Notes under the pieces: model-generated | What the model saw: the letters and a program-made list of their open reading frames with translations, nothing else | Told to the model about the DNA's origin: nothing | The model's database searches: none | Made by a program: the position numbers and the translations under genes | Origin: an uncultured Subdoligranulum sp. | GTDB taxonomy: Bacteria; Bacillota_A; Clostridia; Oscillospirales; Ruminococcaceae | DNA length: 6,094 nt | NCBI RefSeq assembly: GCF_937890665.1 | Contig: NZ_CALADU010000047.1 | Coordinates: forward strand, 1-6,094 | Direction: 5' to 3' | Shown: positions 4,469-6,094 of the stretch, in pieces | Position numbering within the stretch: the first letter of the stretch is position 1 | How the letters are laid out: each line of letters begins with the position of its first letter

Positions 4469-4496
4469 CGAGGCGTTAGCATAGCCTAACGTCTTG
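4469..4496 (+). repeat. 11-bp hairpin downstream of the ligase-like gene
   Basis: On the plus-strand RNA, 4469-4479 pairs with 4486-4496 in an 11-bp stem (9 Watson-Crick, 2 G-U) around the loop CAUAGC. The core is CGTTAG/CTAACG. It starts 28 bases after the ligase-like stop codon. No U tract follows; instead A6 tracts flank both sides (4463-4468 and 4498-4503). It could form the 3' end of the upstream transcript, or act as a DNA operator, since its right arm reaches into the -35 box of the next promoter. On the minus strand the two G-U pairs become A-C mismatches, followed by T6. Confidence 0.6.
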
Positions 4497-4500
4497 CAAA
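4483..4500 (+). repeat. Gapped direct repeat, copy 1 (over the -35 box)
   Basis: This is AGCCTAAC, four unshared bases, then TGCAAA. The same arrangement recurs 56 bases downstream at 4539-4556 with identical spacing, giving 14 of 18 identical positions. This copy overlaps both the right arm of the 4469-4496 hairpin and the -35 hexamer TTGCAA (4494-4499). Confidence 0.6.
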
Positions 4501-4522
4501 AAACGCTTCGACCCTTTATAAT
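4494..4522 (+). promoter_or_regulatory. Promoter of the NifU-like/GGGtGRT operon
   Basis: The -35 is TTGCAA (4494-4499, 4 of 6), followed by a 17-base spacer and a perfect -10 TATAAT (4517-4522). Transcription would begin near 4529, giving a leader of about 40 bases to the ATG at 4569. The leader includes a small hairpin (4527-4545; UUAG with CUAA and CU with AG, one bulged C) just before the ribosome binding site. The strong codon bias of the two genes fits an actively used promoter. Confidence 0.78.
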
Positions 4523-4538: not shown

Positions 4539-4556
4539 AGCCTAACAATATGCAAA
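4539..4556 (+). repeat. Gapped direct repeat, copy 2 (leader, reaching the ribosome binding site)
   Basis: This second copy of AGCCTAAC-N4-TGCAAA lies about 10-27 bases into the predicted transcript. Its last bases run into the AAGGAG ribosome binding site (4555-4560). In RNA, its CCUAAC could compete with copy 1 for pairing with the upstream GUUAG arm if a transcript reads through from the ligase-like gene. Confidence 0.6.
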
Positions 4557-4568
4557 GGAGAGAAAATT

Positions 4569-5273
4569 ATGATCGAATACTCCGCACAGGTCAACAACAT
4601 GTGCCCGATCACAAAAGGGCCCAAGCACGGTCCCGCGCCCATTCCCGAAGAGGGCGAATGGGTAAAGGCCTATAAAATTGAGGATATCAGCGGCTATACC
4701 CACGGTGTGGGCTGGTGTGCTCCCCAGCAGGGTACCTGCAAGCTCAGCCTGAACATCAAGAACGGCATCATCGAGGAAGCTTTGGTCGAGACCATCGGCT
4801 GCTCCGGTATGACCCACTCTGCCGCTATGGCTGGCGAGATCCTGCCCGGCAAGACCATTCTGGAAGCGCTGAACACCGACCTCGTCTGCGACGCTATCAA
4901 CGTTGCTATGCGTGAGCTGTTCCTGCAGATCGTCTATGGCCGCAGCCAGACCGCTTTCTCTGAGAACGGCCTGCCTGTCGGCGCTGGTCTGGATGACTTG
5001 GGCAAAGGTCTGCGCAGCATGACCGGCACCATTTTCTCCACCAAGGCTAAGGGCGTTCGTTACCTCGAACTGACCGAGGGCTACATCCTCAAGACCGCTC
5101 TGGACAAGGACAATCAGGTCATCGGTTACCAGTTTGTCCGCCTCGGCAAGATGATGGAAGACATCCGCCACGGCAAGGATCCCAAGGAAGCCTACGAGAA
5201 GAACATCGGCACCTACGGCCGCTTCTCTGCCGAGCAGGGCGCTGTCAAGTACATCGACCCGCGTGAAGAATAA
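4569..5273 (+). CDS. NifU/IscU-like iron-sulfur cluster scaffold protein
   Basis: This 234-residue cytoplasmic protein has an N-terminal half that aligns by eye with the NifU_N/IscU scaffold fold. TCKLSLNIKNGIIEEALVET (56-75) and IGCSGMTHSAAMAGEI (76-91) correspond to the first and second scaffold cysteine regions, and GKTILEALNTDLVCDAI (94-110) to the third. Candidate ligands are C50 or C57, C78 and C107; C12 is extra. The canonical CGD of IscU, with its aspartate, is absent: C57 is followed by KL. Residues from about 120 to 234 form a C-terminal extension that IscU (about 130 residues) lacks. The start at 4569 has AAGGAG 8 bases upstream; the frame continues upstream to 4494, but that lies in the -35 box. 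It is followed after 20 bases by the GGGtGRT gene, a pairing I recall from other Clostridia. Codons are strongly biased (AAG, GGC, ATC, TTC, CGC/CGT), suggesting high expression. A true role in cluster assembly is inferred from the fold only. Confidence 0.85.
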   Translation: MIEYSAQVNNMCPITKGPKHGPAPIPEEGEWVKAYKIEDISGYTHGVGWCAPQQGTCKLSLNIKNGIIEEALVETIGCSGMTHSAAMAGEILPGKTILEALNTDLVCDAINVAMRELFLQIVYGRSQTAFSENGLPVGAGLDDLGKGLRSMTGTIFSTKAKGVRYLELTEGYILKTALDKDNQVIGYQFVRLGKMMEDIRHGKDPKEAYEKNIGTYGRFSAEQGAVKYIDPREE

Positions 5274-5293
5274 GAGAGGGAGGAACATACACT

Positions 5294-6094
5294 ATGGCAA
5301 CTTTTGAATCCCAGGAACGCCGTATGCCCAAGATCGAGGCCTGCCTGAAAGCCAATGGCTTGGAGAGCCTCGACGCCTGCAACGAAATGCTGCTGGCCAA
5401 GGGCATCGATTGCGATAAGATCATCCGCGGCATCCAGCCCATCTGCTTCGACAACGCCGTTTGGGCTTACACCCTCGGCACTGCCATCGCCGTCAAGCGC
5501 GGCCTGAAGAGCGCTGCTGAGTGCGCTGCTGCCATCGGCGAAGGTCTGGAAGCCTTCACGGTTCCCGGCTCTGTTGCCGAGCAGCGTAAGGTCGGTCTGG
5601 GCCATGGCAATCTGGGCGCCATGCTGCTGCATGAGGATACCCATTGCTTCGCCTTCTTGGCTGGCCACGAGTCTTTCGCTGCTGCGGAAGGCGCCATCGG
5701 TATTGCCCGTACCGCCAACAAGGTCCGCAAGGAGCCTCTGCGCGTTATCCTGAACGGCCTCGGCAAGGATGCTGCTATGATCATCAGCCGCATCAATGGC
5801 TTTACCTATGTCCAGACCGAGTATGACTTCAAGACTGGCGAGCTGAAGGTCGTCAACACCACCGCTTACTCCGATGGTGAGCGCGCTGCCGTTAAGTGCT
5901 ACGGCGCCAACGACGTTCTGGAAGGCGTTGCCATCATGAAGGCTGAGGGCGTGGAAGTTTCCATCACCGGTAACTCCACCAACCCCACTCGCTTCCAGCA
6001 TCTGGTTGCCGGCACCTACAAGAAGTGGGCCATCGAGAATGGCAAGAAGTACTTCTCCGTCGCTTCCGGCGGCGGCACGGGCCGTACCCTGCAT
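5294..6094 (+). CDS. GGGtGRT-family protein (partial, 3' end off window)
   Basis: The first 267 residues are present, and the frame is open to the right edge. The protein begins MATFESQERRMPKIEACL and includes IQPICFDNAVWAYTLG (48-63), VGLGHGNLGAMLL (100-112), FLAGHESFAAAEGAIG (121-136), VILNGLGKDAA (151-161), GNSTNPTRFQH (226-236) and SVASGGGTGRT (255-265). The GGGTGRT block is the hallmark of the family of that name, which I know as conserved in anaerobic bacteria and of unknown function; full-length members are roughly 330 residues, so about 60 more are expected. There is no signal peptide or membrane helix, so it should be cytoplasmic. Seven cysteines are visible (17, 29, 40, 51, 77, 118, 202), along with histidines at 104, 117 and 125. 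AGGGAGG at 5277-5283 is 10 bases before the ATG. Co-transcription with the NifU-like gene suggests a shared role with iron-sulfur clusters, which is inference. Confidence 0.92.
   Translation, partial: MATFESQERRMPKIEACLKANGLESLDACNEMLLAKGIDCDKIIRGIQPICFDNAVWAYTLGTAIAVKRGLKSAAECAAAIGEGLEAFTVPGSVAEQRKVGLGHGNLGAMLLHEDTHCFAFLAGHESFAAAEGAIGIARTANKVRKEPLRVILNGLGKDAAMIISRINGFTYVQTEYDFKTGELKVVNTTAYSDGERAAVKCYGANDVLEGVAIMKAEGVEVSITGNSTNPTRFQHLVAGTYKKWAIENGKKYFSVASGGGTGRTLH

Follow-up and report, generated by a model that had tools for sequence, protein, structure and literature searches.

A GGGtGRT protein and its obligate IscU-like partner: a candidate two-subunit iron-sulfur enzyme of gut and rumen anaerobes

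The window analysed here, a 6,094-nucleotide stretch of contig NZ_CALADU010000047.1 from an uncultured Subdoligranulum sp., ends in two genes 20 bp apart, the first encoding a small NifU/IscU-like protein and the second a GGGtGRT protein of the family PF14057, which has no assigned function and has so far appeared in gut and rumen protein surveys without one. The two genes form an essentially obligate pair. This pairing, the conserved residues, a published iron response in two species and a confident predicted single-chain assembly bring the chance that the products together form a two-subunit iron-sulfur enzyme for anaerobic metabolism, with a bound metal and a catalytic role, close to even. 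The more specific proposal, that in gut and rumen anaerobes an IscU fold has turned into a permanent cofactor subunit of such an enzyme, one so far undescribed, is put forward more tentatively, as a candidate. An earlier note on this DNA had described a two-gene operon of a NifU-like scaffold and a GGGtGRT protein; the observation is confirmed, and is stronger than stated there, while the interpretation is partly supported, in that the pair is iron-linked and stands apart from SUF but is probably not a scaffold. Given an obligate partner, a link to iron and an altered IscU site, this orphan family can now be tested as a metalloprotein complex, and the database names ‘scaffold’ and ‘nitrogen-fixing protein NifU’ call for caution.

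The earlier note had proposed a survey of co-occurrence and adjacency, which we carried out by searching one profile per protein against the same genome sets (two phylum sets of 199 and 148 genomes and an order set of 197); genome completeness is not given for these sets, so the absence of a pair gene from a genome is no proof of its absence. In the order of the Faecalibacterium genome G001, which we take to be Oscillospirales, the NifU-like gene occurs in 127 and the GGGtGRT gene in 129 of 197 genomes, 125 of which hold both; one gene stands alone in two (NifU-like) and four (GGGtGRT) genomes, and 66 have neither. The GGGtGRT gene directly follows the NifU-like gene on the same strand at 122 of 127 NifU-like loci, and a partner lies directly upstream of 116 of 117 full-length GGGtGRT genes, the contig of the sole exception stopping 9 bp further on. 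The fetched sequence of two one-sided genomes (G458 and G525) shows pairs truncated by contig ends, and the coordinates of the other four (G481, G520, G469 and G401) place the match no more than 4 bases from a contig start. Three genomes hold both genes as partial, non-adjacent matches: a contig end truncates the NifU-like piece of G546, whose GGGtGRT gene is in three separate fragments on one contig, while in G366 and G549 the matches to both genes are incomplete and lie on different contigs.

The same association holds at greater distance. In the phylum of G001, PF14057 was found in nine of 199 genomes and the NifU-like profile scored 364–468 bits in the same nine, with all ten pair loci adjacent; the next NifU-like score, 33.6 bits, is at the level of IscU/SufU-type proteins. 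In the phylum of a Salinivirgaceae metagenome-assembled genome both genes occur in the seed alone among 148 genomes. Both phylum sets include seeds chosen for holding the gene (G001 and G009), without which the counts are 8/198 and 0/147. Conserved GGGtGRT words retrieved 80 loci, the best of at least 587, of which 77 have a strong NifU-like match, upstream of the GGGtGRT gene in every case; 72 of these meet a strict window and five deviate only since the second gene's open frame reaches back over the end of the first. In the remaining three the NifU-like gene is split (L054) or cut by the contig start (L086), or the GGGtGRT gene begins at the contig start (L057). Gene order is the same in Collinsella, Bacteroides, Parabacteroides, Persicobacter, Vibrio and Subdoligranulum records, and by the organism names of the records the pair is found in at least six phyla.

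The small protein of the window scores 19.1 bits against NifU_N (PF01592), below the curated Pfam cut-off of 22, and ‘NifU-like’ therefore denotes a distant relation; six of eight other partner proteins lie narrowly above that cut-off (at most 24.7 bits) and two below. The best match of the family profile in the PDB is 4eb5 (E 0.00015), and a Foldseek search with the predicted model found the IscU structure 7c8o with a probability of 0.98 and a TMt of 0.50, but an E value of only 0.04, and also 2qq4 (probability 0.89) and, weakly, SufU of B. subtilis (5xt5, probability 0.66). Our alignment of the family holds 94 rows from 93 distinct loci (L094 is L009), having started from 97 from which L054 (split), L057 (no NifU-like gene on the contig) and L086 (cut) were removed. 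The IscU ligand anatomy used for comparison is in part general background. In the model the first invariant cysteine ends strand 41–49, the second joins strand 66–76 to helix 78–90 and the third opens helix 107–122 (numbered as in locus L012, where each residue is one lower than in the window), so that the three are predicted to lie at secondary-structure places like those of the IscU cluster ligands (PMC13423590).

Beyond the fold and the places of the three cysteines, the protein shares with IscU, the NifU N-terminal domain and SufU a GKT/S...EAL segment. Unlike these relatives, it has CAPQQG-A/T in place of Cys-Gly-Asp, no histidine before the last cysteine, a shorter stretch before that cysteine and an extra C-terminal part; it is also followed directly by a GGGtGRT gene wherever the contig allowed a look and, in the window, falls under the Pfam cut-off. 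The residue aligned with the IscU aspartate is alanine in 64 rows, threonine in 21, cysteine in six, glycine in two and serine in one, and aspartate in none of the 94, while valine precedes the last conserved cysteine in all 94, where IscU has histidine. The register around the first cysteine is that of the profile alignment, which places it four residues upstream of the IscU ligand position; the consensus segment CAPQQGxC holds no aspartate in any register. By comparison, the ordinary IscU/SufU relatives of pair-bearing genomes keep CGD in 12 of 12 readable cases (15 loci were fetched; L116, L120 and L121 were left out).

In IscU, substitution of this aspartate (D39A, D37A or D43A) stabilises the cluster, the residue being required for efficient release, and H106A is likewise cluster-stabilising (PMC13423590). 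Both cluster-freezing changes, the loss of the aspartate and the loss of the histidine, are natural in the NifU-like family, and this is our main reason for doubting the scaffold reading. The label is also at odds with the lack of a recurrent sulfurase-like neighbour and with expression that falls when iron is short. An internal duplication, in which the C-terminal half would repeat the IscU sheet in decayed form, was considered and rejected, as 32 of 100 column shuffles reach its profile-comparison score.

Both partners respond to iron in two species of different phyla. Iron depletion lowers BT0173 (GGGtGRT) and BT0174 (NifU) of B. thetaiotaomicron 11- to 12.8-fold (PMC10434189). The GGGtGRT protein of C. 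pasteurianum is more abundant with iron, 7.1-fold (early) and 2.2-fold (late), and so is a NifU-related protein with the next listed locus tag, 1.6- to 3.7-fold in two spots (PMC5395762), the column assignment of these values being read from a flattened table. In the same table PFOR, hydrogenase and rubrerythrin change in the same direction and one flavodoxin in the opposite one (PMC5395762). Ribosomal proteins and EF-Tu, however, also rise with iron in C. pasteurianum (PMC5395762), so growth may contribute to the response. By name, both partners are expressed in chicken gut anaerobes, at high levels in vivo (PMC11204068), and belong to a single time group of a rumen study (PMC7035244). One study finds them lower in patients with colorectal cancer (PMC13041051), and in another, of chemoradiotherapy for rectal cancer, both carry the mark Down and have consecutive locus tags (PMC12014591). 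Unless the locus tags are consecutive, a ‘NifU’ named in such surveys may be another NifU. The available parts of these expression papers state no function for the pair, and no published functional study of the GGGtGRT family was found in the literature searched, subscription papers and preprints lying outside its scope.

A prediction of the complex, also proposed in the earlier note, places the two proteins together. The pair genes are in the same frame at 30 of 80 loci, and we gave AlphaFold2 the product of one locus (L012) read through the intergenic stops as a single chain of 594 residues, with an alignment comprising in addition 25 read-through rows, 29 rows of GGGtGRT alone and 31 of the NifU-like protein alone. 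The model has a predicted local distance difference test score of 81 and a predicted template-modelling score of 0.83, where simple arithmetic gives about 0.55 for parts that are folded but unplaced. As this is one construct, judged by its own scores, the joint placement is support for a complex and not proof.

The window GGGtGRT protein is a full member of PF14057 (474.4 bits over residues 4–267, against a cut-off of 27), and what is new here is its obligate partner; most listed relatives are 330–334 residues long. As the earlier note had pointed out, the family is one without established activity, and the GGGTGRT block and the blocks GLGHGN, GHESF and GNSTNPTRFQH are all present and highly conserved. 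Conservation is exceptional throughout, at least 58% to one reference over 97 rows, with invariant polar residues but no cysteine invariant over all rows, and includes a near-invariant glycine-rich loop (GGGTGRTLHPDN-AGPASYG). Model confidence is lowest in the loop that is conserved most, as would be expected of a loop that closes over a ligand. No sequence relative of solved structure was found at E ≤ 0.001, the best rows, at chance level, having E values of 0.024 and 0.4. Fold searches list Rossmann-like α/β proteins (UDP-GlcNAc 2-epimerases, short-chain dehydrogenases and FtsZ/tubulin) at TM values of about 0.3, from which no shared activity can be read; sequence support for this likeness was not found, and the glycine-rich loop is the family’s own. 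These fold searches used no separate query for the N-terminal helical domain of the GGGtGRT protein or for the C-terminal half of its partner.

Two possible relations of the GGGtGRT protein were considered and rejected. The tubulin signature is GGGTG[S/T]G, which GGGTGRT recalls, and FtsZ is among the fold matches; homology was rejected on a profile-profile probability of 0.6% against 12 FtsZ-type sequences. The motif ‘GNNPMVG’ suggested a serine dehydratase or cysteine desulfidase; neither is among the listed fold matches, a result that does not exclude the idea. A second subfamily (L097, P0241–P0360) has GGGIGRT with altered neighbouring segments (TSAGPASYG, MSRMY and DATFAG). One genome, G200, holds one pair of each kind (L093 and L097), which suggests that the GGGTGRT and GGGIGRT pairs are two specialised versions.

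SUFBD-family genes occur independently of the pair: in the order set, 53 of the 131 genomes with either pair gene and 22 of the 66 without have one (Fisher p 0.35), and nine of a mixed set of 18 pair genomes have them. Single weak genes (64.6–96.5 bits), rather than SufB plus SufD, make up most of the family's matches in the order set and may belong to a minimal SUF-like system. Since 15 of the 18 pair genomes hold an ordinary NifU_N protein as well, the pair is no replacement for IscU. By sequence reading, no sulfurase-like gene is found among the neighbour clusters present in at least four of the best 80 loci, although one Collinsella record has sufBDSU just upstream of the pair. The earlier suggestion of a dedicated system separate from SUF and ISC keeps support as an iron-linked, SUF-independent pair but probably loses the scaffold role.

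Three other explanations have to be weighed against a two-subunit enzyme. The pair could serve dedicated assembly or delivery, the NifU-like protein carrying a cluster to a client and the GGGtGRT protein acting as a docking factor or a nucleotide-dependent release factor. An IscU-like fold with three invariant cysteines, an obligate partner and the sufBDSU genes of Collinsella would all suit such a role, but we consider it improbable, as the release aspartate is missing throughout, desulfurase-like genes do not recur among the neighbours, an ordinary IscU/SufU relative is usually present besides the pair, SUFBD-family genes come and go independently of it, and expression rises with iron and not with iron lack. 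The rise with iron, together with the high expression reported in vivo (PMC11204068), would also fit a store or buffer, the complex setting clusters or iron aside under iron-rich conditions. Few cysteines are available for storage, however, as the small protein has three that are invariant and the large one none, and the conservation and invariant polar residues of the GGGtGRT protein better suit a defined site, making a store unlikely.

It is also unlikely, to a similar degree, that the pair transfers sulfur with bound zinc in the manner of SufU, or holds no metal and uses the IscU fold as a structural partner. The weak fold match to SufU of B. subtilis points this way, as do the zinc-bound IscU and SufU structures tabulated in PMC13423590, while iron-dependent expression in two species of two phyla and the loss of an aspartate that SufU shares argue against it.

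For the two-subunit iron-sulfur enzyme, the reading that we favour, three properties are inferred: binding of a cluster, permanence of that cluster and a catalytic role of the complex. In such an enzyme the small subunit would be an IscU/NifU fold made cluster-keeping, in which Cys50, Cys78, Cys107 and perhaps Cys57 would hold a cluster supplied by the housekeeping assembly machinery, the aspartate and histidine that make the IscU cluster labile having gone. The large GGGtGRT subunit would dock on it and offer a Rossmann-like α/β domain with a mobile glycine-rich loop that may close over a substrate or nucleotide beside the cluster. As other dispensable iron-sulfur enzymes do, the pair would accumulate under iron-replete conditions and cease to be made under iron limitation.

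The features of the window are collected in Table 1. The other genes recognised by Pfam encode a histidyl-tRNA-synthetase-like protein, a major facilitator superfamily transporter and an O-antigen-ligase-domain membrane protein (Wzy), followed by the pair; none of the five proteins scanned is a sulfurase or SUF protein, in keeping with the earlier note. The common promoter that it describes is likewise supported, the site in Table 1 being the only promoter-like site on the plus strand near the pair, with none between the two genes, and both ribosome-binding sites are good.

Table 1 Positions of the pair, its conserved codons and other features in the window.
Feature	Position	Strand	Basis
Histidyl-tRNA-synthetase-like gene (hisS)	192-1445	minus	Pfam match
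Imperfect 18-nt direct repeat, copy 1 (AGCCTAAC...TGCAAA)	4483-4500	+	Repeat search
Sigma-70-type promoter-like site TTGCAA-17-TATAAT	4494-4522	+	Motif scan
Imperfect 18-nt direct repeat, copy 2, runs into ribosome-binding site	4539-4556	+	Repeat search
Ribosome-binding site AAAGGAGAG of NifU-like gene	4554-4562	+	Read from sequence
NifU/IscU-like gene, 234 aa from ATG	4569-5273	+	Open reading frame, profile and fold matches
Codon Cys50 (CAPQQG), invariant in 94/94 rows	4716-4718	+	
Codon Thr56, at the aligned position of the IscU Asp for cluster release; no Asp in 94 rows	4734-4736	+	
Codon Cys57, Cys in 92/94 rows; candidate fourth ligand	4737-4739	+	
Codon Cys78 (IGCSGM), invariant in 94/94 rows	4800-4802	+	
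Codon Cys107 (LVCDAIN), invariant in 94/94 rows; Val before	4887-4889	+	
Ribosome-binding site GAGGGAGG of GGGtGRT gene	5276-5283	+	Read from sequence
GGGtGRT protein gene (PF14057), residues 1-267 of ~332, open at window end	5294-6094	+	Open reading frame, Pfam
Codons of GGGTGRT block, residues 259-265, highly conserved loop, low-confidence prediction	6068-6088	+	

The strong codon bias that had been noted for both genes holds: their effective codon numbers are 33.5 (NifU-like) and 32.0 (GGGtGRT), against 40.6, 43.6 and 46.4 for the other three window genes, and none of 500 resamplings with the codon frequencies of those genes came as low. The claim that the two biases match is softer, as the codon-usage distance between the pair genes (1.59) exceeds those from the NifU-like gene to hisS (1.39) and from Wzy to hisS (1.19). 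The direct repeat flanks the promoter in copies that are 78% identical and is absent from the enriched words of 90 pair-upstream regions, and is possibly an operator of this lineage. Among the same regions, which include the window, TATAATA occurs in 37 (6.0 expected) and CTATTGA in 14 (1.1 expected). A common operator or riboswitch was rejected, the commonest enriched words being promoter elements and the rest occurring in at most eight of 90 regions; Rfam gave no match in the window. The closest named loci among the best 80 are from Candidatus Gemmiger (95%) and Faecalibacterium (89%).

Neighbouring genes were surveyed in flanks of up to 8 kb and named by reading of their sequences. No third gene keeps a fixed place beside the pair among the clusters found at four or more of the best 80 loci; the most frequent neighbours are an ATP-binding-cassette-transporter-type ATPase cluster, rejected as a recurring third gene since its members at 12 of 80 loci are scattered and not in one orthologous place, and a secA-like gene, at seven loci. 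Ten matches to only the last 20–45 residues of PF14057 lie on other contigs of nine order-set genomes, and may be contig-edge pieces, remnants or another protein with such a tail. All or part of the GGGtGRT gene is carried by four records titled ‘Bacteriophage sp.’ that come from human fecal samples (L007, H11–H14). A viral context was rejected, since none of nine matched IMG/VR stretches encodes a relative of the NifU-like protein in a single-sequence query that reaches close relatives only; in the light of that scan the four records are perhaps bacterial DNA in viral preparations. One pipeline ranked GGGtGRT among the top putative virulence factors of Clostridium innocuum (PMC9942572), probably a labelling artefact, because GGGtGRT is widespread in commensals. 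In a Ruminococcaceae metagenome-assembled genome (L054:5255-6198) the NifU-like gene lies in two frames, by frameshift or assembly error. In Parabacteroides a 63-residue membrane-type open reading frame lies between the pair genes (L003:5800-5991), and the pair is followed by a nitroreductase, so named by sequence reading, whose N-terminus resembles a two-cluster ferredoxin.
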